Of a DNA stretch of 64,000 nucleotides, positions 22,344-63,474 are shown piece by piece. The stretch lies in NCBI RefSeq assembly GCF_014396975.1, contig NZ_CP060719.1, positions 621,501-685,500 of the forward strand, written 5' to 3'. The notes beneath the pieces were generated by a model. That model saw nothing but the letters and a program-made list of their open reading frames with translations, was not told the DNA's origin and did no database searches. The position numbers and the translations under genes were made by a program. This DNA is from Thermomonas carbonis (lineage in GTDB: Bacteria > Pseudomonadota > Gammaproteobacteria > Xanthomonadales > Xanthomonadaceae). The stretch's first letter is position 1. Each line of letters starts with the position of its first letter.

Positions 22344-23099
22344 TCACGTATTCGAACTCCGCATCGCCTGAAACATGTTCATGCTGCCCACGCGCAGCAT
22401 CGTGCTGTCGAAGTCGAAGCCGTGGAACGTATCATGGTTGAAACGTTTCGCCGATTTCTTGTCAGCGTAGATTTCCTGCTGGTGGTGCGTATTGAGGTAT
22501 TCGCTGGCGGCGACCAGGAAGCCCGCCGTGCCACAGGCTGGATCGCAGATGGTGTCTGACGGCTTTGGCGCCATCATGTCGACCATCAGCTTGATGATGT
22601 GGCGAGGAGTCCGGAACTGGCCATTGCGTCCGGCTGAGGCGATCTTGCCCAGCATGTACTCGTACAGGTCGCCCTTGGTGTCGCGGTCCTCCATCTGGAT
22701 CGCGTCGAGCATGTCCACCACTTTGGCCAGCAGCGCCGGATTCGGAATGGTGAAGCGCGCATCTTTCATGTGGGTTGCGTAGGTCGAATCTTCCGCACCG
22801 AGGTTCTTGATGAAGGGGAACACCTTATTGGCCACAACGTCGTACATGGTGGCCGCGTCACCCATCTGCTTGAACACCGACCAGCGCAGCTTCTGCTGCT
22901 TGCTGTTAAAGATCGGATCCTCGACCTCGCGCTTCAAGCGGTTGGCTTTCTTTTCCTTGACGGTTTCGAGTTCGTCCAGCCGCTTGATGAAGAGTACGTA
23001 GGTCATCTGTTCGATGACTTCTAGGGGATTCGAGATGCCGCCTGCCGCGAAGGCGTTCCAGATGGCGTCGACTTGGCTCTTTATGGTGCCGGTGATCAC
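22344..23099 (-). pseudogene. hsdM: Type I restriction-modification methylase HsdM, truncated
   Basis: 251 residues, about half of a normal HsdM. The N-terminal helical domain (MITGTIKSQVDAIWNAF, MTYVLFIKRLDELE) and the first half of the N6-adenine methylase domain are present, with GQFRTPRHII and the SAM-binding motif DPACGTAGFL. The sequence is normal up to MLRVGSMNM and then switches to FQAMRSSNT and a stop. The catalytic NPPF motif and the rest are absent, and no hsdS or hsdR follows. Since the tail does not continue in another frame, this is a deletion or recombination scar rather than a simple frameshift. It lies 51 bases downstream of zorD on the same strand. It should have no methylase activity. 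Confidence 0.85.
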
Positions 23100-23150: not shown

Positions 23151-26100
23151 TTAAACAAGGCTGGCAAACTCGCTGGCGGTGACTTCTTGAGTACCGGCAA
23201 GCATGTCCGAAGATAATTGGCGCTTGGTAGTCAGCAGGGTAGCGAGCCGTTGCTCGAATGACTCGAATCCGCTGCCGACCACGGTGGGGCAGTCGACATA
23301 CACATCCCGGACTTGGCCAATTCGGTAGGCCCGGTCGGTGGCTTGGTCTTCCTTGGCCGGATTCCATGGACGGGTGAAGTGGATGACATGGTTAGCCGCC
23401 TGGATGTTCACCCCGAAGCCAACCGCTGTCGTCGACAGAATGATCACCCCAAAACCCGGTGCCTGCTGGAAGCGGTCGATCAGACGTTGCCTCGAGGTGT
23501 CACTGCCCGCGCGGACCTCGGTACTTCCGTTGATGACCTGCGCGTGGTAACCAAACCGCTGCGCGATCGACTTTTGCACAATCCGCTGGATATCGCGGAA
23601 CTCCGTAAACACGATGGCCTTTTCACCAGCCGACTGGATGTGAGCAAGCCGCTCGAGCAGCCATCGTAGCTTGGGCGACGCTTGCAGGTGCTCGGTGATC
23701 GGCCGGCTTTCATGGTCCGCGTGCGCGACTGCCATTGGATTGGCACAGATCATCCGGAGGCGATGCAACAGTTGAAGAATGGCGTTGCCAGCGGAACGAG
23801 GGTCCGCCTCCTTGACCCGGTGGTACTCCTGGACCGCGCTTGCGTACAGGCGCGATTGCAAAGGGGACATGGCCAGCGCATTGCCGGAGGGCTCCGCTCC
23901 CTGCTCAATCTTCCGTGGCAGGTCTCTGCTGACATCCGCCTTCATTCGGCGGAGAACCCATGGCTGGATTGCCTGCCGCAACGTAGCGACTAGCGCCTGC
24001 CTGTCGGCCTCCTCACCTTCAATGCCCGTACGGAAGGTTTTTGTGAAGTCGTTGAGGGAACGCAGGTAGCCTGGTTGGAAGAAGTCGAATAGGCACCACA
24101 GATCCGCCAGCGAGTTCTCCACTGGCGTGCCGGTGCAGGCAATCCGGAAGTCCGCCCGAAGCGCCTTCGCAGCCTGGGTGACGAATGCAGCGGGATTCTT
24201 GATTTTTTGTGCTTCGTCGCAGACCACGATGCCCCAGCCAACGCGCGCCAGCGAGAACTCGTAGTCACGCAGGGTTTCGTAGGTCGTCAGCACAACCTTT
24301 CGGCCACGCTCAAAGCCCGGGCGCAACAACTTTCGTACGCCGAGCTCGACGAGCTCGGGGTCCAGTGAAGACGCGGTCAAGCGGCACGCGGATAGCTCAG
24401 GCCCGTAGAGACTGAGAACGTCTCCATCTGTCCAATCGAGGAACTTGCGGATCTCCTCCTTCCAGTTTTCCAGGAGCGACACCGGCGCGACGACAAGGCA
24501 CGGTGCGGCATCCTCAGATCGCTCGACGTGCCATGCAATGAGGCAAAGGGATTGCAGCGTCTTGCCCAGACCCATGTCGTCAGCCAGAAGGCAGCCTGAA
24601 ACACCTGAAGCGCGCGCACCATACCGATTCTGCAGCCAGGCAACGCCTTCATCCTGGTGCGGTAGCAGCGACACGCCAGGGCGGACGGCATTCGCTCGCA
24701 CCAAGTCGCCCACGGCATCACCGCTCCACTCGACTGCCCCCTTCTCATAGTCGAGCTGTTCGATGTTGTGGAATATCTCAAGCGTCGCGTGCTTGTTCCG
24801 AGTCTGCGCATCACTCGTCTGGCCTGGGTGCCTACCGGCGCCAATGGCGATATCAGCCCGCGTGAAGGCGTCGATCACACTGCGGGCTTGCTCGATCGGG
24901 AGCGGCAGCCCAAGGCCGGGGACAACGACTTCCTCGTTGCCTTCACGCTCCGCGGCAGCAACGGCCTCTTCTAATCCCCGAAGATTTTCGGGAGAGAGAT
25001 CCTGCGTGCTAACCGCCCCCGTATGGGGATCCACCGTCACAAGTCCGTGAGTGACGTTGTCAGGTAGCCAACCGCCGCTCTGATCTCTCCTTCTAACTGT
25101 GGGGACGACCTGCACTTTCGCTTCGGCGATCCCAATCACGCGACGGCTGTACGCACTCAAGTCCAGTAATTCAGCCAGGGTAATCGTGCCCGCAGGGACG
25201 GCAGCGGTTGCAAGCCACTTGGCAATTTCGGCCAGTGCAACATCGGTCGTCGGGCTTAGTTCGATTTCGAAACCGTCCCAATTGAAGAGCGGCAGCGCCT
25301 TGGCACGCGACAGACCAGAGGCCTGCAGCAGCGACTGTGCTGTCTCAATGTCCAAAGGCTCGGTAACTGTGGCTTCGTCCGGGTGCAGCGAGATGAGTTC
25401 GATGTGCGGAGGAGAGCCGGGATGCAAGACGCAGCGTAGGCGATACGGCAGCAACCCTGTGTCCTGCCTTGCCTGCGTCAACGCCTCTTCATCCAAGGCC
25501 GCATGGGCGTCCTCGCCAAGGACTGCATAGGGATTGTGGACAAACATGCGCGCATCGGCCGACGCCAATCGTCTGCCAGGCCACTTCTTGACCGCGGACA
25601 AGACTGCGGTGACCGCAGGGGTAGGAACGACCTGGACAAGGCTGCCGTCGGGTTCGGTGATGTCATACCGTGGTCTGACCGAGTCATAGCGGTCGAAAGC
25701 CGCCAGAAAACCCTCGGGTGCACCGCGAGGAGTGGGGATGGCCTCGATCACCGGGATATCACCAACATCCACTCGCATGAGTTCGATACCGACCTTTTCA
25801 CTCGTGACAACGCGCGTTCTCTCAAGGAAATCATCGAGCCTTCCATCGGCGCGGCGGGCCATCTTCTGGATACGCCCCAACACAGCAAGACGGCCGCTCG
25901 GGCCGAGCGTTGAGCCTTCGCGCCGCAGCGTATCGATTTCTTGAATAAGCGCCCAAGTTGGCGCGGAGACGAGCCAGACCTCATCAGGCGTCTGAATGGC
26001 TGCACCGACTCTCTGCAATGTTCGTTGCCCAGACATCGCGGTCCACCAAGCGGTGATGAAGACCGCGAAATCCTCTTCTGAGGGCGTGCCCAAGCTCTCA

Positions 26101-26402
26101 AGACACGGCACCCACTTGCCGACGGCAGGCAACTGCAGCAGGGCCACACTTGATGCGTGACTCTCTTCTTCCAAGAGCTGGTAGACCGCGTCCCACGAAA
26201 CGGCAATGACTTCGCCCGTCTCGCTTGCGAAACCTTCACTTATAAGCTGCTCGAGGTAAGCCGCCCTTGCCTGATCGATGGCGGAAAGGTTGCCCGGCTC
26301 TGTCCACCAATTCGGCTGGTCGCCTGAAGACCGATACTGGACACCTGAAGAGGTAAGCAAGGGCTGGATGCCAGTCTCAGGCTTGGACCAAGTTAGCTTC
26401 AT
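23151..26402 (-). CDS. zorD: Zorya type I protein ZorD (SNF2-family helicase/nuclease)
   Basis: 1083 residues, the usual ZorD size. The N-terminal about 550 residues are a ZorD-specific domain with no motif I recognise. The C-terminal half is a SNF2-type helicase: Walker A LLADDMGLGKT (about residue 605), VVAPVSLLENW, DEAQ box VVCDEAQKIKN, motif III ACTGTPVEN, then TEFRDIQRIV, STTAVGFGVNIQAANHVI and the arginine-finger block QATDRAYRIGQ. In type I Zorya, ZorD is the DNA-acting effector proposed to process invading phage DNA when the ZorAB motor signals. The start codon overlaps the zorC stop (ATGA), so MKLTWSKPETG is the true start. Confidence 0.93.
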   Translation of the reverse strand: MKLTWSKPETGIQPLLTSSGVQYRSSGDQPNWWTEPGNLSAIDQARAAYLEQLISEGFASETGEVIAVSWDAVYQLLEEESHASSVALLQLPAVGKWVPCLESLGTPSEEDFAVFITAWWTAMSGQRTLQRVGAAIQTPDEVWLVSAPTWALIQEIDTLRREGSTLGPSGRLAVLGRIQKMARRADGRLDDFLERTRVVTSEKVGIELMRVDVGDIPVIEAIPTPRGAPEGFLAAFDRYDSVRPRYDITEPDGSLVQVVPTPAVTAVLSAVKKWPGRRLASADARMFVHNPYAVLGEDAHAALDEEALTQARQDTGLLPYRLRCVLHPGSPPHIELISLHPDEATVTEPLDIETAQSLLQASGLSRAKALPLFNWDGFEIELSPTTDVALAEIAKWLATAAVPAGTITLAELLDLSAYSRRVIGIAEAKVQVVPTVRRRDQSGGWLPDNVTHGLVTVDPHTGAVSTQDLSPENLRGLEEAVAAAEREGNEEVVVPGLGLPLPIEQARSVIDAFTRADIAIGAGRHPGQTSDAQTRNKHATLEIFHNIEQLDYEKGAVEWSGDAVGDLVRANAVRPGVSLLPHQDEGVAWLQNRYGARASGVSGCLLADDMGLGKTLQSLCLIAWHVERSEDAAPCLVVAPVSLLENWKEEIRKFLDWTDGDVLSLYGPELSACRLTASSLDPELVELGVRKLLRPGFERGRKVVLTTYETLRDYEFSLARVGWGIVVCDEAQKIKNPAAFVTQAAKALRADFRIACTGTPVENSLADLWCLFDFFQPGYLRSLNDFTKTFRTGIEGEEADRQALVATLRQAIQPWVLRRMKADVSRDLPRKIEQGAEPSGNALAMSPLQSRLYASAVQEYHRVKEADPRSAGNAILQLLHRLRMICANPMAVAHADHESRPITEHLQASPKLRWLLERLAHIQSAGEKAIVFTEFRDIQRIVQKSIAQRFGYHAQVINGSTEVRAGSDTSRQRLIDRFQQAPGFGVIILSTTAVGFGVNIQAANHVIHFTRPWNPAKEDQATDRAYRIGQVRDVYVDCPTVVGSGFESFEQRLATLLTTKRQLSSDMLAGTQEVTASEFASLV

Positions 26403-28123
26403 GGCAAGTAGTACCCGTTCTTGATGGCTTTGTAGCGAAGCCCTAGCGCCAAGAGTTCTGTGTGTAGCAATGCGCGAACCCTGGGATAAACCCAAAGCGC
26501 GCCCCCTTTATCCCGATGGTCAACAATCTCCACATTCATATCGCGAAGTGAGCGCATCAAAAATTCCTCGCGGGCATTCCGAAGAATCTCGTCTGGCGAC
26601 CCAACTGCTGCTTGTGGTGTCCTCGCGTCAAAATTGGTTTGCGACGCAACTCGTGTGACTGACCCTGTCTGCGTTGGGGATGGCAGCGGCGGCGCGACAG
26701 GCTGTGCAGGCGCGCCAGATTGCGTAGCCGTTGCTTGTTGTCGGCTCGCTGGGCGGCTCGCCTGACTATCAGGAAAGACGCCCTTAGCTCGAAGCTCAGC
26801 TAGGAACTTTTCTTCCCATGACAAGTGTCCGTCCATGTGCGTCAACCAGCTCGAAGCCGTCACCCTTTGCTTCAAGTCAAGAATCGAATAGTCACGGCGG
26901 CCCAAATTGATGTTGGCCCCTGACACTGGATAGCCATAGCAGGCGTTGCCTGTCTCTGAGAACTCTACGAATACCCAGCCACCGATCTGCATCAGAATTG
27001 CATTGTTCGATGCGGGGCCCGACGTAAGGTTTCCAATACGGTCCTTCTTCTTTGCAATGAAGTCCCTTACATCCGTATTACGGCTGTAGCGAATCTCCCC
27101 TCCCAGCAAAATCTGGGTGTAGTCCATCTGTCCCGTGAAGCGGAGCCAGAATTTCAGTCGTCGTTGATCGACCTGGGCGTGCCCCCGGCAGACCTGATAG
27201 AAATCTTCCAGATCCTCCTGTGCAAGCCAGCCGCACACCATTTGCTTGGCAGCAGTGCCAGCCAACTCCCAGAGATTGTTTGTACGGAGTTGCGGGCTCC
27301 GCCATGACTCCAAGGCGAACTGGAGGAGCTCAGGATGTCGTGAATGGTTCTCGCACTGTGCGTAGCGGGCAAGCACGGCGGCGAGGATGTCGTTCAGTGA
27401 CCCTGGAATACGGCCAGGCAAACGCAAGAGGTAAGGGATCTTGGAACGAAAGGCCGTGTCGGTCAGGCCTTCCAGACCCGCTCTCATTGTTTTGACCAGC
27501 TCCGTCCAGAACCAACTTCCTGGAGGCACATCGGTGTTGGCACGAAGGTCATCTAGTAGCTCTGTCCCCTCGTCGATCATTTCTTCCATGTAGGCACGGC
27601 AGGGCGAGGTTCCCAATAGGGATTCGTGCCTGCCTAACGCTTCCCACCAAAGGGGTGGCCTTAGCCAAGACTCTGCAAGCGACTTAGCGGCTTGGGACAA
27701 GAGGCGACGCAGTCGTTCTGCGCCCGGACCTGGCGCAGCTTGCAGGAACGAGCGGAACAAGCCCCTCCAGTGCATGGGAGACATACGCCCATCTTGGGCT
27801 TGAGCCTCCCACCGCCCTAACAAGGCCGCTCCTGGAACAGAGTCGAGAACCGAGAGCCCCCCCAATGCGCGAGTAGGGCGAGAAAATCCATGGGCAAGGA
27901 AAAGGAGCTGTCGTTTGGATGGTGTCCGGCCACGACTGAGGGCAACCACTGCTGCCTCTAGCCGGTCTGGAGTCGCAATTCCTGCCTTGCCACCGCCATA
28001 TCGCTCCCGAACAGCTTGGACCACTCGGCGCAGCTCACGGGGCTCCGCAATTTGGCACGTACCCGTTGCAAGCTCCTGCAATTGTCGGGACAGCGCACTT
28101 TCGATGCCTTGTGCAAAACTCAT
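26399..28123 (-). CDS. zorC: Zorya type I protein ZorC (EH-signature domain)
   Basis: 574 residues. No enzymatic motif is visible. The body contains the EH-signature region seen in ZorC (the central WFWTELVKTM...LRLPGRIPGSLNDIL and FYQVCRGHAQVDQRRLKFWLRF segments), followed by a Pro/Thr/Gln-rich linker (about residues 435-490) and a compact C-terminal domain. It is the second cytosolic component specific to type I Zorya and is thought to be recruited with ZorD to the motor complex. The start MSFAQGIES overlaps the zorB stop by ATGA, which is preferred over an upstream ATG 12 bases earlier. Function within the complex is inferred from the operon and family. Confidence 0.9.
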   Translation of the reverse strand: MSFAQGIESALSRQLQELATGTCQIAEPRELRRVVQAVRERYGGGKAGIATPDRLEAAVVALSRGRTPSKRQLLFLAHGFSRPTRALGGLSVLDSVPGAALLGRWEAQAQDGRMSPMHWRGLFRSFLQAAPGPGAERLRRLLSQAAKSLAESWLRPPLWWEALGRHESLLGTSPCRAYMEEMIDEGTELLDDLRANTDVPPGSWFWTELVKTMRAGLEGLTDTAFRSKIPYLLRLPGRIPGSLNDILAAVLARYAQCENHSRHPELLQFALESWRSPQLRTNNLWELAGTAAKQMVCGWLAQEDLEDFYQVCRGHAQVDQRRLKFWLRFTGQMDYTQILLGGEIRYSRNTDVRDFIAKKKDRIGNLTSGPASNNAILMQIGGWVFVEFSETGNACYGYPVSGANINLGRRDYSILDLKQRVTASSWLTHMDGHLSWEEKFLAELRAKGVFPDSQASRPASRQQATATQSGAPAQPVAPPLPSPTQTGSVTRVASQTNFDARTPQAAVGSPDEILRNAREEFLMRSLRDMNVEIVDHRDKGGALWVYPRVRALLHTELLALGLRYKAIKNGYYLP

Positions 28124-28848
28124 TGCAGCATGCACCGATCTTCAGTCGGTGAACGGAATTTTGGTCGGTCATTACCCAGACCACCAGGTTCATCCAAGCC
28201 GTAGAACTGAAGTCTCAGTTCGACCCGTCGACTTTCATCCTTGTTTTCCTTGGCGTTGTTGAAGGAAACACCTCCCGCCAGGAAAAGGTCTCGCACGCGC
28301 TGCAGTTGTTGAGGCGAAAGATCAAGTTGCATGTTCTTCGTTGGGTCGAGCAGCATGCACATGACCCACTCCGATCGACGGAGGCTCAGGTCGAGGTTGT
28401 AAAGATAGGAGCCATCGGTATCGGTGAAGCCCTCGATGATGATCTGCTTGAGCCACTTTCGGCCCAACTCGCCGTCGGCCGACTTCAGCACCACTGGCAC
28501 CAGATCAGCCAATGACGCGCCAACCTCCGGGGGCAGGTGGTAGTCGTTGTGTGCGAAACGCCCTGCTTCGCCGAAGCTGATTCGGTTGTCGGCACAGTCC
28601 ACGCGGATATGCGGATGTGTGTTGAAGGCCTCTCCAAGCTCTTTGCACATCTCCCGAATCTCTTCGGCGCGAACCACTTCTTTCGCCTTCTCCTGCTGCA
28701 CGTCGCGCGTTATCGCCACCATGGTGACAGCCATTGCCGCCAGGAACAGCGTCATCATTGCGGTCATGAGGTCGGCATAGGAGATCCAGAATGGCTTTTC
28801 GCCATCCGATTTCCCTCGCGATCGCTTCCGGTTGATGGTCCCGAGCAT
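28120..28848 (-). CDS. zorB: Zorya protein ZorB (MotB-like stator with OmpA domain)
   Basis: 242 residues. A basic N-terminus leads to one transmembrane helix (about residues 20-46, FWISYADLMTAMMTLFLAAMAV) with Asp26, the proton-carrying aspartate typical of MotB/ExbD-type stators. The periplasmic part is an OmpA/MotB-like peptidoglycan-binding domain: IIEGFTDTDGSYLYNLDLSLRRSEWV, then NKDESRRVELRLQF. With ZorA it forms an inner-membrane proton-driven motor anchored to the cell wall that senses phage entry. It starts two bases after the zorA stop. Confidence 0.94.
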   Translation of the reverse strand: MLGTINRKRSRGKSDGEKPFWISYADLMTAMMTLFLAAMAVTMVAITRDVQQEKAKEVVRAEEIREMCKELGEAFNTHPHIRVDCADNRISFGEAGRFAHNDYHLPPEVGASLADLVPVVLKSADGELGRKWLKQIIIEGFTDTDGSYLYNLDLSLRRSEWVMCMLLDPTKNMQLDLSPQQLQRVRDLFLAGGVSFNNAKENKDESRRVELRLQFYGLDEPGGLGNDRPKFRSPTEDRCMLQ

Positions 28849-28850
28849 AA

Positions 28851-30734
28851 TCAGTCGTCGTCCGTATCGAGAACCGATTCAGCTAGCTGCTCTATCGCAT
28901 CTTTCAGCATTCCGACGGCGTCGGCCAGTTGCTTCTGATAGTCCGACAAATGCTGTGACAGCACCTTTGCCACGCTTCCGCCGAACACCTCAACATTCTT
29001 GACAAGGTGCTCTCCCACATCCTCGCTGAGTGAGGCCAACTGGAGACCCACATTGCGGGACTGCTCAGCCATGGCATTCAGGTCGAGCAGAAGCTTTCCT
29101 CGTGCGTCAGCCTCGACCATCGCGGAGTGCGCAACTGCTTCCAACCTTGTGGCCGCGGTGCCCATTGCCGTGGTGGTTGTATTCAATGCCTGACTGGCAG
29201 AACCCAGGACATTGACACTGGTGGTCATTTGCTCAGAAGACGAAATAAACGCCGACTGCATCTCGCCGAAGCGCTGGGCAAGCTGACCTAATTGCTGCGT
29301 TGCCTGCTGCACAGATGCAACTGCAGTTGCAACAGTCGCCGCGCCGGCCGTTAGCTTTTCAATCGTCTGATCAGAAGCTGTCCCCAGAGCTGCAATCGTC
29401 TGAGCAGCGCTTGCGTGCGTTTGCTCGTTGGCAGCGGCCAAGGCATTGACCCGCTCGCTCATCGCCGACACCACCGACGAGACGCTTGCTTCGGTACGTT
29501 GTCCCATCTCTTCTTGGCGACTTGCCAACTTCTGGACGGTATTCTCCACGCGCTGCAGCAGGTCGTCCGTGCTCCCTTGTATCGCCACTGACTGCTCACG
29601 CTGGTGCTCCGCCATGGCAGCAATCAAGCCTTGAACAGTGGTCTGCATCCCCGACGTTGACTCACTGCTGGTACGGCGCATGTCCTCGATCAGGGAGCGC
29701 ATCGAAGCTTCGACCGCACTCATTGATGTCGCGGTTTGCTGCATGAGCGTACTGAGGTCCCCCATCTGACCGCCAACCGACTCTTTCATTTGCGCCATGA
29801 AAGCCGCCATCAGGTTCTCGAGAACGTGGCTTGCTGCTGTAGCTTGCTGACCACTTGCCTGCCGCACGGTTTCAGCCAGACTGGACAATGGCTCTTTCAG
29901 GCCTCCAACGATGTGCTGGCCAATTTCCTGCGACATTCTCTGAGAAGCATCGATCTGCCGCTCAGTCAAATTGGTCAAAAGGACCTTGAGGTCCTCAATC
30001 ATGCTTTCTTTGAGCTGCCTGGTTTGGGTTGCATTGTCTTGCGAAGCTCGGAGCAGATCCGAAAGGTACTCCTCCCCCACGCCAGACTTGAACAAACTAT
30101 CGAGCCCAACCGTAATCTCTCCGACCCACTTGGCACAGGACGAGTAGAGCCATTTTTCTACCAGGGTCACGAGCATCGCCAAGCTGATCGCGGCCGCGGA
30201 GAAATAGAACGCTCCCTCGACGTGCTTGAACAAATCGCCCAAGCCGACTTTCAGGGCATCTACTTCCACATTTGGCTTGAATCCGACCAGACCAGCGATT
30301 AGCCCACTGAACGTCCCAATGATCCCCAAACCGGTGAAAAGCCCTGGCAGGTGTTTGAAGTATTCGGCGCCAATACGGGGATCAACTGTCGACTCGAGGT
30401 TGATGAATGCATCGGCCGAAACCGTGGCCCGAATGGCATTCAATCGGCGTTCGCCGTTCACGACGTCAAACTGTTCGTGCAACGTGTCGTTGTATTCAAT
30501 CCACGCATGCGCAACCTGGCTTCCCTTGAAGAGGGAGCTGAGCTTGGATCGGAGTTGATCGTGTGATTGCCCCGAAAGGGAGCTGACCTGCTGCGCGAGA
30601 CCTTTGAGCTCTCTGCGCAGGCGAACGCCACGTATGACGTATTGCCACAGGAAGTGAACGATCAGAAGAACTGAAATGGAACTGAGTGCCGCAATAAATG
30701 CGGTTCCCGTCAAGTGAGACCAAAACCCCAGCAT
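28851..30734 (-). CDS. zorA: Zorya protein ZorA (MotA-like motor with long coiled-coil tail)
   Basis: 627 residues. One N-terminal helix (AFIAALSSISVLLIVHFLW), then a MotA/ExbB-like core with helices at about 135-160 (LPGLFTGLGIIGTFSGLIAG) and 180-202 (FYFSAAAISLAMLVTLVEKW). From about residue 240 to the end the protein is a very long Ala/Gln/Ser-rich helical tail (ESMIEDLKVLLTNLTERQ, repeated MSAV-, TVQ- and LAQ- heptads), the cytoplasmic tail characteristic of ZorA. The tail is proposed to pass the signal of phage-induced envelope disturbance from the motor to ZorC and ZorD. The ATG has a strong GGGGGAG ribosome-binding site, which is itself part of a long inverted repeat. First gene of zorABCD. 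Confidence 0.95.
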   Translation of the reverse strand: MLGFWSHLTGTAFIAALSSISVLLIVHFLWQYVIRGVRLRRELKGLAQQVSSLSGQSHDQLRSKLSSLFKGSQVAHAWIEYNDTLHEQFDVVNGERRLNAIRATVSADAFINLESTVDPRIGAEYFKHLPGLFTGLGIIGTFSGLIAGLVGFKPNVEVDALKVGLGDLFKHVEGAFYFSAAAISLAMLVTLVEKWLYSSCAKWVGEITVGLDSLFKSGVGEEYLSDLLRASQDNATQTRQLKESMIEDLKVLLTNLTERQIDASQRMSQEIGQHIVGGLKEPLSSLAETVRQASGQQATAASHVLENLMAAFMAQMKESVGGQMGDLSTLMQQTATSMSAVEASMRSLIEDMRRTSSESTSGMQTTVQGLIAAMAEHQREQSVAIQGSTDDLLQRVENTVQKLASRQEEMGQRTEASVSSVVSAMSERVNALAAANEQTHASAAQTIAALGTASDQTIEKLTAGAATVATAVASVQQATQQLGQLAQRFGEMQSAFISSSEQMTTSVNVLGSASQALNTTTTAMGTAATRLEAVAHSAMVEADARGKLLLDLNAMAEQSRNVGLQLASLSEDVGEHLVKNVEVFGGSVAKVLSQHLSDYQKQLADAVGMLKDAIEQLAESVLDTDDD

Positions 30735-30742
30735 GTAAGACT

Positions 30743-30819
30743 CCCCCTAGAATCCTTGGTGCCGTTTTCCCCATCTACCGCCTTAGCGGTAGATGGGGAC
30801 AAACTTCGATTCTAGGGGG
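30743..30819 (-). promoter_or_regulatory. Nested palindromic leader containing the zorA ribosome-binding site
   Basis: Outer arms CCCCCTAGAATC (30743-30754) and GATTCTAGGGGG (30808-30819) are perfect 12-bp complements. Inside them CCCCATCTACCGC (30769-30781) and GCGGTAGATGGGG (30786-30798) form a perfect 13-bp stem with a CTTA loop. In the zorA transcript the downstream outer arm contains the AGGGGGAG Shine-Dalgarno sequence, 9 bases before the ATG, so the folded leader would hide the ribosome-binding site. Regulatory function is inferred; the symmetry itself is exact. Confidence 0.65.
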
Positions 30820-31009
30820 TTGCGGGTCGGTCCGGGACATCGGCCATGAGATCGCTCGCTTGGATCCATTGGACGTGATAGACCCCATCGAGGACTTTGC
30901 ATACTAAGTTCGATGCAGCTCGTCGTGAAAAGAGCAAATGCAATATTTCAGCAGCGACTTCTGCTCTTCGTATGCCTGTTTGAAGCAATTGGTAATGTAG
31001 CGACAGCCG

Positions 31010-32247
31010 TTAGCTAGTGTTTCCATCCCCCCTCAAGGTATCTAGATAGTCGGCCCACGCTTGCATCATTTCTCGGCGCTTGGGTAAATACTCGGCCATG
31101 TTGTAAACGCCTTCCGTGCCGCCAACCTTATGCGACAACTGCGCTTCAACTGCTTCACGTGGCCAACCCAACTCTCGCAACCGCGTCGACGCCATGTGGC
31201 GGAAGCCATGCCCGACCATTTCGTCCTTGAATCCGATGCGCGCCAACGCAGCATTGATGGCGCCGTCGCTCATATGCCGCTTCTGATCTCGGGCCCCGGG
31301 AAAAAGGAATCGGTCTCGCCCAGTCAATACGTGTAGCTCTCTCAGAATAGCGATGGCTTGGCTGGACAGAGGAATCACGTGCGGCGCCGTGTCTGGATGC
31401 TCCTTCTCTCTCTTGCGTAACTTCCGGATTGCTGGGGGCACCCTGTAAGCCGGGTTCTCGCCGTCAAGGTCGAATTGCGCCCACTCAGCCATACGGATCT
31501 CGCCAGGTCGGCAGAACCACAGAGGGGCTAGTTTCAGGGCACAGGCAACCGGAAAGGTGCCACCGAATCCGTCGATCGCCCGCAGCAGGTCACCGACCCG
31601 CTTTGGATCCGTGATCGTGGGATACCTCTGCTTCACCATATCGCGGCGAGACGGCAGCGCCTCGCTTAGGTCCGCAGCCGGGTCACGCTCTGCTCTGGCA
31701 GTCGCAACCGCGAACTTAAACACACGACTCAATTGAAACCGGAGTCGATGTGCCTGCTCCAGATGACCGGCCTTGGACAGACGCTCGATGAGGGGCGGAT
31801 GTCGGCGACCCCCAATGCCGCCACCGGCCTCCCTCCGATGAATGGGAAGGCGTGATTTTCCAGCCTGCCCTGCTCTTTCTCGAAGTTCTTGTCTGTCCAG
31901 CCCGGCTTGCGCACCGCGAGCCATTCTCTGGCGAGCACTTCGAAGCTGTTGGCCGCCCGCTCCAGACCTGCGGCCTTCTCAGCCTTGCGGTTCTCGCCCG
32001 GATCAATGCCGGTTGCGATCTGCTTGCGGGCTGCGTCACGCCTTGCCCGAGCGTCTGCCAAGCCGGTGTCGGGGTAGGTCCCCAAGCTCAGCGTGTTCCG
32101 CTTGCCGGTGACAGGCCGCCGGTAGTCGAACCGCCACCATTTGCCCCCGTCAGGCCTCAGGAGCAGGTAGAGACCGCCCCCGTCCGCCAGCTTGGCTGGC
32201 TTTGCGCAAGGCTTTGCCTTGCGGATGGCAACATCGCTAAGCGCCAT
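31010..32247 (-). pseudogene. int: Tyrosine-type island integrase, one-base frameshift
   Basis: The N-terminal frame (MALSDVAIRKAKPCAKPAKLADGGG, with the DUF4102 arm-binding domain including GKRNTLSLGTYPDTGLADAR) runs to ALGVADIR. The C-terminal frame then continues with PLIERLSKAGHLEQAHRLR and the catalytic domain: Arg in LWFCRPGEIR, His-X-X-Arg in GHGFRHMAST, and Tyr in GVYNMAEYL. One added C in the CCCC run near 31795 restores a 412-residue P4-type integrase. It lies with its start toward the tRNA-Met 3' end, the usual arrangement for tRNA-integrating islands. Either the element is locked in place by the frameshift or the base is missing from the sequence data. GAGGGG precedes the start. 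Confidence 0.88.
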
Positions 32248-32259
32248 GCCGAACCCCTC

Positions 32260-32322
32260 TGACGGTAACTGGAATCGAGCGACTCCCCTTACCGTCAACG
32301 TTACCGTCAAAGCTGACGGTAT
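32260..32322. repeat. Four TTACCGTCA-type iterons upstream of the integrase
   Basis: TGACGGTAA at 32260-32268, TTACCGTCA at 32289-32297 and 32301-32309, and TGACGGTAT at 32314-32322: two copies on each strand within 63 bp. They fit integrase arm-type sites or sites for a regulator of int. A similar 12-bp-spaced pair (TTACCGCCA, CTACCGTCA) lies at 12130-12150, near the other proposed island end. Confidence 0.6.
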
Positions 32323-32422: not shown

Positions 32423-32499
32423 TGGTGGCTATGGGTGGACTCGAACCACCGACCCCAGCATTATGAGTGCTGTGCTCTAACCGGCTGAGCTACATAGCC
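32423..32499 (-). tRNA. tRNA-Met (anticodon CAT)
   Basis: On the minus strand GGCTATG at the 5' end pairs with CATAGCC at the 3' end, followed by ACCA encoded in the genome. The D-arm reads GCTCAGCCGGTTAGAGC, the anticodon loop CTCATAA has CAT, and the T-arm has GTTCGAGTCC. 77 nt. The sequence is close to elongator tRNA-Met of gammaproteobacteria; a lysidine-modified Ile tRNA also has CAT, but the CTCATAATG loop and stem favour Met. Its 3' end is the probable insertion site of the island to its left. Confidence 0.95.
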
Positions 32500-40861: not shown

Positions 40862-40967
40862 TCTTGCCTTGGCGGGTAGCGTTCGAGCGCGCCATGGATG
40901 GCGCGCGGCCGCGCATCGGAGCCGGATGCGGAGCCTAAGCGGCGAACGCTACCCCGCCAAGGCAAGA
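40862..40967. repeat. 106-bp structured palindromic element
   Basis: Near-identical inverted ends: TCTTGCCTTGGCGGG then TAGCGTTCG (40862-40885) against CGAACGCTA then CCCCGCCAAGGCAAGA (40943-40967), differing by one G. Inside, GCGCGCCAT-GG-ATGGCGCGC (40887-40906) is another perfect palindrome. No coding frame; it lies between the RND terminator and the bioD 3' end. It looks like a small non-autonomous repeat (MITE- or REP-like). Confidence 0.6.
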
Positions 40968-43322: not shown

Positions 43323-43393
43323 AGCCCGCGGGCGCTGGTTGCTTCCCAGATTTCCTTTGCGCATCCGGCACCGCGCTGCGTACACTGCGCGCG

Positions 43394-43618
43394 CTTCAAG
43401 GTGATCCAACGGCTTTCGCCCGCGGATTGAAACGGGAAGCCGGTGACGACGCGCTCTGCGCATCCAGTCCGGCGCTGCCCCCGCAACGGTAAGCGAGACA
43501 ACCCTGGCATCGGCCACTGTGCGTGCATCGTCCTGATGCGGCATGGGAAGGCGTCAGGCGGGAACGACGGCCACGCTGGTCATCGTTCCGCTCGCCAGCC
43601 CGGAGACCGGCCTTGAAG
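43394..43618 (+). ncRNA. Cobalamin (AdoCbl) riboswitch
   Basis: Closing stem CTTCAAGG (43394-43401) pairs with CCTTGAAG (43611-43618). Core elements in order: GGGAAGCCGGTG, CTGCCCCCGCAACGGTAAGC, GGAAGGC, and the B12 box AGCCCGGAGACCGGCC (43597-43612). This matches the cobalamin riboswitch consensus. It is located 135 bases upstream of btuB on the same strand, so B12 should reduce receptor synthesis. Confidence 0.95.
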
Positions 43619-43752
43619 TCTGTTGGTTGCGATGCGGCGGGCATTGCGCGACGTCGCGCATGTCGTTTTCCTGCATCGCCCGTCTCCGTTCCCGTGTGTG
43701 TCGCAGCCGCCCTTCCTGTTGGGCGCGCGGGCGTGCGCGCCGGAGAACCGTC

Positions 43753-52895: not shown

Positions 52896-52983
52896 GTCAT
52901 TCCCGCGAAGGCGGGGATCCAGCTCTTCAGGCCTTGCCCCTCAAGACATTCAAAAGCTGGATTCCCGCCTTCGCGGGAATGAC
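52896..52983. repeat. Palindromic repeat (GTCATTCCCGCGAAGGCGGG family)
   Basis: 29-bp arms at 52896-52924 (GTCATTCCCGCGAAGGCGGG then GATCCAGCT) and 52955-52983 (AGCTGGATTCCCGC then CTTCGCGGGAATGAC) match except at one base. It sits between the two permease genes inside the operon. This is a well-known dispersed intergenic palindrome of proteobacteria; in a transcript it would form a long stable stem and could affect mRNA decay or relative expression. Confidence 0.85.
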
Positions 52984-57451: not shown

Positions 57452-57532
57452 GTGGGAGGGGCTTCAGCCCCGAGCTTTTCATGCGACTGCATCGCCAGCG
57501 ATCGAAGAACTCGGGGCTGAAGCCCCTCCCAC
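57452..57532. repeat. REP-like palindrome (GTGGGAGGGGCTTCAGCCCCGA family)
   Basis: Perfect 23-bp arms at 57452-57474 and 57510-57532 (GTGGGAGGGGCTTCAGCCCC then GAG, and its complement) separated by 35 bases. It lies between convergent kinase and glmU genes, where it may also act in termination. It is the same general family as the element at 63418. Confidence 0.85.

Positions 57533-61978: not shown

Positions 61979-63474
<1,496 letters not shown>

Follow-up and report, generated by a model that had tools for sequence, protein, structure and literature searches.

A nested palindrome at the ribosome-binding site of a type I Zorya operon: a candidate translational brake on zorA

The Zorya operon and its leader palindrome

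The window analyzed here, a 64,000-nucleotide stretch of the Thermomonas carbonis genome, carries a type I Zorya system whose four genes, zorA, zorB, zorC, and zorD, form one operon on the minus strand, running from 30734 to 23151. The predicted products match the PADLOC profiles ZorA1 (28851–30734; PDLC00599, E = 1e-210), ZorB1 (28120–28848; E = 3e-96), ZorC1 (26399–28123; E = 3e-122), and ZorD1 (23151–26402; E = 0). Spacing is tight: the zorB ATG lies 2 nt after the zorA stop codon, and the zorC and zorD start codons, both chosen by reading the sequence, overlap the stop codons of the genes before them (ATGA). The zorA start (ATG at 30734–30732) is supported by ZorAs that are 77–85% identical, which begin at the same methionine. 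The GC content of zorABC (56.5%, against 64.8% for the window) suggests that the donor may have been foreign.

The upstream neighbor of zorA, in the same orientation, is a gene for a tyrosine integrase (31010–32247, minus strand), which adjoins a tRNA-Met gene (32423–32499, minus strand) lying farther upstream. Its coding sequence is broken into two frames here, whereas in three related loci (L012, L013, and L014) it forms a single open frame; this configuration suggests that the island may have lost independent mobility. Direct and inverted TGACGGTAAC repeats (32260–32309) are found just before the integrase start and also precede the related integrases in L012–L014; they are perhaps integrase-binding or autorepression sites. 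At the other end of the operon, an N-terminal fragment of HsdM (an N6-methylase; 22344–23099), apparently from a truncated restriction-modification gene, lies directly downstream of zorD.

The integrase and zorA are separated by 275 bp that contain no ORF of at least 100 amino acids. The zorA-proximal part of this gap is occupied by a nested palindrome with a total length of 77 bp, the last base of which lies 8 nt 5′ of the zorA ATG. In the orientation of the zorA mRNA (all features on the minus strand), it consists of a 5′ outer arm (CCCCCTAGAATC, 30808–30819), which contains a −10-like hexamer, TAGAAT; the 5′ arm of an inner stem (TCCCCATCTACCGC, 30786–30799); a TAAG tetraloop (30782–30785); the 3′ arm of the inner stem (GCGGTAGATGGGGA, 30768–30781); and a 3′ outer arm (GATTCTAGGGGG, 30743–30754) that overlaps the Shine-Dalgarno sequence. 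The outer arms pair at 12 of 12 positions across a distance of 53 bp and the inner arms at 14 of 14 around the 4-nt loop; the internal loop between the two stems has 8 nt on one side and 13 nt on the other. The Shine-Dalgarno core, GGGGAG (30741–30746), is separated from the zorA ATG by a 6-nt spacer and has four of its six bases (GGGG) within the outer stem, with AG just beyond it.

This architecture confirms, with small corrections, the original observation of a perfect 12-bp outer inverted repeat that encloses a perfect inner one and carries the zorA ribosome-binding site in its downstream arm. The outer repeat is exactly as described; the inner repeat is perfect and is 14 bp long rather than 13; and the Shine-Dalgarno tract AGGGGGAG was correctly placed, except that the stem closes 2 bases before the tract ends.

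Transcription and predicted folding of the leader

For the outer stem to form in RNA, transcription must begin upstream of both outer arms. The best sigma-70-like promoter of the gap (TTCACG-17-TAGTAT, 30901–30929, minus strand; start expected near 30894) is so placed, and its score was reached in 5 of 638 200-nt windows; this is weak evidence, as the relaxed matrix is an approximation of the E. coli sigma-70 consensus. A second site, which uses the TAGAAT of the 5′ outer arm (30814–30809), is poor, with 61 of the 638 windows scoring as high. A stricter consensus scan of the gap region returned no promoter at all, the 30929–30901 site included (0.5 expected by chance). A start upstream of both arms is suggested by the best promoter-like site and receives no backing from the stricter scan.

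Several reading frames of 21–58 codons start upstream and run into the hairpin (for example, 30902–30783 and 30988–30812). By eye these short frames have no convincing Shine-Dalgarno sequence, the three that were tested have no Pfam match, and the frame at 30815–31009 has no relative in plasmids (searched with its last 58 residues), in 88 other genomes, or in a protein database. A leader peptide is speculative.

The predicted fold of the region is strong. Folded as plus-strand RNA, positions 30725–30850 reach −62 kcal/mol (z = −5.6), and none of 200 shuffled sequences was as low; three runs on the coding strand with a 110-nt leader gave z scores of −4.9, −5.7, and −5.6. If the transcript includes the 5′ outer arm, each of the four Shine-Dalgarno bases in the stem has a predicted probability of being unpaired of at most 0.01; the corresponding values for the last two bases are 0.84–0.95 and 0.58–0.85.

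The cost of opening the zorA Shine-Dalgarno region (−13 to −7) is computed to be 15.3 kcal/mol, a value equaled or exceeded at 1 of 175 other gene starts (median 4.9, 90th percentile 8.8); these starts are our own ORF picks from a genome sample, not curated genes, and exclude ORFs that lack a Shine-Dalgarno-like motif or lie close to either end of a stretch. Likewise, 1 of the 175 has a dinucleotide-normalized folding z score equal to or lower than that of zorA. By raw minimum free energy (MFE), 33 of the 175 fold as strongly as the zorA leader or more so; over a wider region (−14 to +3), 13 of the 175 are as costly to open; and in a cruder survey by MFE the zorA leader ranks 17th of 220, zorA counted. 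A high opening cost together with a raw MFE that is unexceptional for this GC-rich genome indicates that the unusual feature is where the stem sits, on the Shine-Dalgarno sequence, more than how stable the fold is in total.

A competing local hairpin (30729–30764, minus strand), in which the 3′ outer arm pairs with the Shine-Dalgarno region and the stem closes on the start codon, is predicted for transcripts in which the 5′ outer arm is lacking or left unpaired. Where both structures can form, the one with the outer stem is favored by 11.3 kcal/mol (−67.5 versus −56.2). For transcripts with a 5′ end inside the palindrome, the computed opening cost falls to 7.5–7.9 kcal/mol, compared with 12.9–13.6 for full leaders in the same test. 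Pairing probabilities and opening cost both support the proposal that the hairpin, if transcribed, would mask the zorA ribosome-binding site, which is well supported as a physical prediction. A scan of the window with Rfam at gathering scores returned nothing at the palindrome; its only matches, both elsewhere, were a tRNA and a cobalamin riboswitch (43382–43629; RF00174, 99.3 bits).

Occurrence of the palindrome and comparison of zorA leaders

Perfect inverted repeats (arms of at least 10 bp, span of at most 140) number 37 in the window, against a mean of 16.5 in first-order Markov (Markov-1) sequence, so the DNA of the window is palindrome-rich. The zorA palindrome is the sole nested pair among the 37. 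Sixty Markov-1 windows of the same size yielded two nested pairs with both arms of at least 10 bp in total, and arms of at least 14 bp occurred in them at 0.07 per window. When 400 kb of the same genome was added (464 kb altogether), the zorA palindrome was again the only such pair under a strict nesting rule that misses stems with a slip; at 40862–40967, two consecutive arm pairs (15 and 12 bp, with a 3-bp overlap) make an equally long hairpin that this rule does not count. Perfect repeats with arms of at least 13 bp number 28 in the 464 kb, the zorA inner stem included, and most of 12 elements with long arms that were inspected by eye look like repeat units. Because strong palindromes are common in this DNA, a hairpin near a gene is in itself no sign of function.

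The 91-bp element is a single copy. Searches with blastn found it once in its own genome (a second match is the palindrome aligned with itself) and in none of 394 other sampled genomes of the family; the exact inner-palindrome pattern also occurs at one place in the genome. No match was found in plasmids, phages, or E. coli genomes, and viral contigs gave no exact match to either of two patterns. A covariance model, self-derived from two rows (the element and its own reverse complement) and run with filters that lose some weak matches, matched 6 of the 394 genomes at E ≤ 0.05 (best E = 0.001); by eye all six are unrelated, and they look like coding sequence, GC-rich repeat units, or a repeat of the GTCATTCC type. 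No target-site duplication of 2–12 bp was detected at any of nine boundary shifts from −4 to +4.

Of 25 genomes in the genus, 10 (this one among them) have some match to the integrase-to-zorA stretch. Three of the matches are long (L012, L013, and L014; 78–79% DNA identity to the integrase); they end where the integrase ends, and the palindrome is absent from these loci. An integrase-linked attachment or accessory site was rejected on the evidence of these three relatives, and a multicopy transposon or repetitive extragenic palindrome (REP) was rejected for the genome itself and for the sampled family on single copy number, the lack of matches in the family genomes, and the missing target duplication. 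The many unrelated genomic copies that would have marked the palindrome as a repeat were thus not found, and the same observations speak against the suggestion, made at the outset, of a transposon or attachment relic, although a donor outside the sample could still be its source.

Other zorA leaders were gathered from several sets. A contig scan of genomes gave one zorA (L003, 59% identity); the family search gave zorA in 4 of 394 other genomes (46%, 39%, 39%, and 27%); the class search, in 368 other genomes, gave a single fragment (L009, with 41% identity across some 115 residues); and the order search, at E = 1e-40, gave zorA in 2 of 298 other genomes, both already found. Of 24 plasmid records with zorA, four were compared (1 of the 20 Klebsiella records; the E. 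coli record was left out). Phages and viral contigs contained no zorA.

The 10 other leaders belong to zorA genes that are 27–59% identical where they align, and in none of them does a perfect repeat of at least 9 bp touch the ribosome-binding site. Two have such a repeat elsewhere: in L056 it ends 49 nt upstream of the ATG, and in L006 it ends 101 nt upstream. Across the 10 leaders, z scores for folding range from −2.1 to 1.3, and the Shine-Dalgarno opening costs are 0.3–3.5 kcal/mol at ATG starts and at most 7.6 kcal/mol at any tested start. No homologous leader that could be aligned was found among these 10 loci. ZorAs of 85%, 83%, and 77% identity, which share the N-terminus, are among the matches listed in the protein database (526 homologs). 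The expectation of a Zorya cis-element was not borne out at the 27–59% identity of the leaders compared: the hairpin is absent from 10 of 10 leaders, and neither a general Zorya switch nor a conserved Zorya element is supported by these sequences. Seen at one locus only, the hairpin looks like either a local brake or a chance leftover.

Two further features of these leaders were noted. The zorA1 leader of L056, which comes from a Klebsiella plasmid, contains a perfect palindrome of 10 bp (CGTAATCAAT, about 2838–2862), the one that ends 49 nt before the ATG. In three other genomes of the family (L005, L006, and L007), the sequence immediately upstream of zorA looks by eye like the end of a similar gene (RWRRPN..GNWGIV..W), which was not seen in the window.

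Possible roles of the hairpin

The most economical reading, to which we tentatively give a probability of roughly 45%, is that the palindrome is a lineage-specific 5′-leader element that works at the mRNA level to brake zorA translation. A transcript that starts at the putative promoter near 30929–30901, or that reads through from the integrase, would have a leader some 160 nt long or longer. Within it, the inner 14-bp hairpin would probably fold first and bring the outer arms together, whereupon the 5′ outer arm (CCCCCUAGAAUC) would pair with GAUUCUAGGGGG and lock the GGGG of the Shine-Dalgarno sequence. Were the 5′ arm absent or engaged elsewhere, the weaker local hairpin would still cover the Shine-Dalgarno sequence and part of the AUG. 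Because zorB follows zorA at a distance of only 2 nt, and the starts of zorC and zorD each overlap the stop codon of the gene before, throttling zorA should throttle the operon. The perfect 12- plus 14-bp nested pairing, a z score of about −5, the tight zorABCD spacing, the lack of a terminator-like site, and the single copy all favor such a brake; we infer that transcription spans the entire leader, that cells express less of the operon as a result, and that the hairpin is maintained by selection. Against it, a hairpin this stable that nothing is known to open may do no more than shut the operon off. Of the translational control originally proposed for the operon, predicted masking of the ribosome-binding site stands, whereas its extension to a conserved Zorya element is not supported.

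The hairpin might instead be an on/off lock, with transcripts left untranslated until an infection-linked signal frees the 3′ arm and zorABCD is made. We regard this as quite improbable; the signal could, as speculation, be a nuclease, an RNA chaperone, an antisense RNA, or a ribosome translating a short frame that ends inside the hairpin. If true, such a lock would amount to post-transcriptional control of Zorya, for which a limited literature search found no precedent, and it could protect the cell from a costly system newly arrived on an island.

Leader hairpins that sequester a ribosome-binding site are known from RNA thermometers, translational riboswitches, and ribosomal-protein autoregulation. 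The zorA leader resembles them in that its Shine-Dalgarno sequence is predicted to be paired within a stem of the 5′ leader and that a competing fold exists; it differs in having neither an Rfam match nor phylogenetic support, and its predicted stability seems too high for a simple thermometer. In IS10, IS50, and IS200, the leader of read-through transcripts folds back over the transposase ribosome-binding site. The likeness is that at zorA, too, an upstream repeat arm would hide the site only in transcripts that start outside the repeat, and zorA lies just downstream of an integrase of the same orientation. The zorA palindrome, however, is not the end of an insertion sequence, its best predicted promoter lies outside the repeat and the one inside is weak, and the local hairpin is predicted to cover the ribosome-binding site even when the upstream arm is missing. 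The available portions of PMC4265352 and PMC5006887 do not state the fold-back. In ISPpu9, as far as the accessible part of the report indicates, the transposase is controlled through its 5′-UTR, on which two small RNAs act (PMC8450116). A structured 5′-UTR that influences expression of a mobile-element gene would be common to both cases; no small RNA is known at zorA.

Control of Zorya expression seems little studied: by title or opening of the abstract, the limited literature search returned no Zorya leader element and nothing on Zorya regulation. According to the part of the paper available, Zorya I under its native promoter gave no protection against Mav and Alma, which, judging from context, are the phages that its over-expression tests used; the terms upstream, untranslated, and hairpin are absent from that part (PMC11890865). 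The result suggests that Zorya expression level may matter, and a simple, testable cis-acting brake at one zorA, at present a single locus, would offer a handle on the question.

Two explanations at the level of DNA or transcript ends were weighed against a brake. A dimeric repressor bound to the palindrome, which overlaps the −10-like TAGAAT (30814–30809) of the upstream arm, could control transcription, as BrxR-type regulators do elsewhere; the inner 14-4-14 palindrome has operator-like dimensions, and defense islands can be repressor-controlled at inverted repeats (PMC9122601). In the accessible part of that report, the BrxR site consists of imperfect 11-bp repeats with a 5-bp spacer, and BrxR is encoded beside it. 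Both sites are inverted repeats upstream of defense genes, but at zorA the outer arms are 53 bp apart and the 275-bp gap, with no ORF of at least 100 amino acids, leaves no adjacent regulator. With a poor promoter at TAGAAT, neither arm repeated exactly elsewhere in the window (inexact matches are at chance level), and a nested 77-bp architecture that a repressor site would not need, we consider an operator improbable. The hairpin could also insulate zorA or form the 3′ end of the integrase mRNA, ending or stabilizing read-through RNA. It does lie between two genes of the same orientation, and the relative L014 has, by eye, terminator-like hairpins after its integrase; yet no T-run follows the stem, and no intrinsic terminator was predicted on either strand in 30500–31300 (0.7 expected by chance), so that an intrinsic terminator was rejected. 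With the hairpin beginning as far as 190 bp downstream of the integrase stop codon and reaching the zorA Shine-Dalgarno sequence, an insulating role also appears very improbable.

The main rival to a translational brake, still rather unlikely in our estimation, is that the palindrome is an island-borne relic of a small mobile or repeat unit (MITE or REP-like) and that its effect on zorA is incidental. The genome carries several types of palindromic unit of 52–106 bp (GGGTCAGAGT, GTCATTCCCGCG, and TGTAGGAGCGGC), the sequence of the inner arm, CCCCATCTACCGC, looks by eye similar to the CCCCTCTCCCGC / GCGGGAGAGGG unit of L048, L050, L051, and the own-genome L039, and the low GC content of zorABC allows for a foreign donor. 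Against this stand the single copy in the genome, the lack of a match in the 394 family genomes, plasmids, phages, and E. coli genomes and of an exact match in viral contigs, the missing target-site duplication, and the reading of all six covariance matches as unrelated.

The 52–106-bp palindromic elements, of several kinds, have arms of 14–28 bp. Those in the window are at 40862–40967, 52896–52983, 57452–57532, and 63418–63474, and others were found at L029, L033, L039, L040, and L046. The GGGTCAGAGT type, which is REP-like by eye, accounts for 15 motif matches in the 464 kb.
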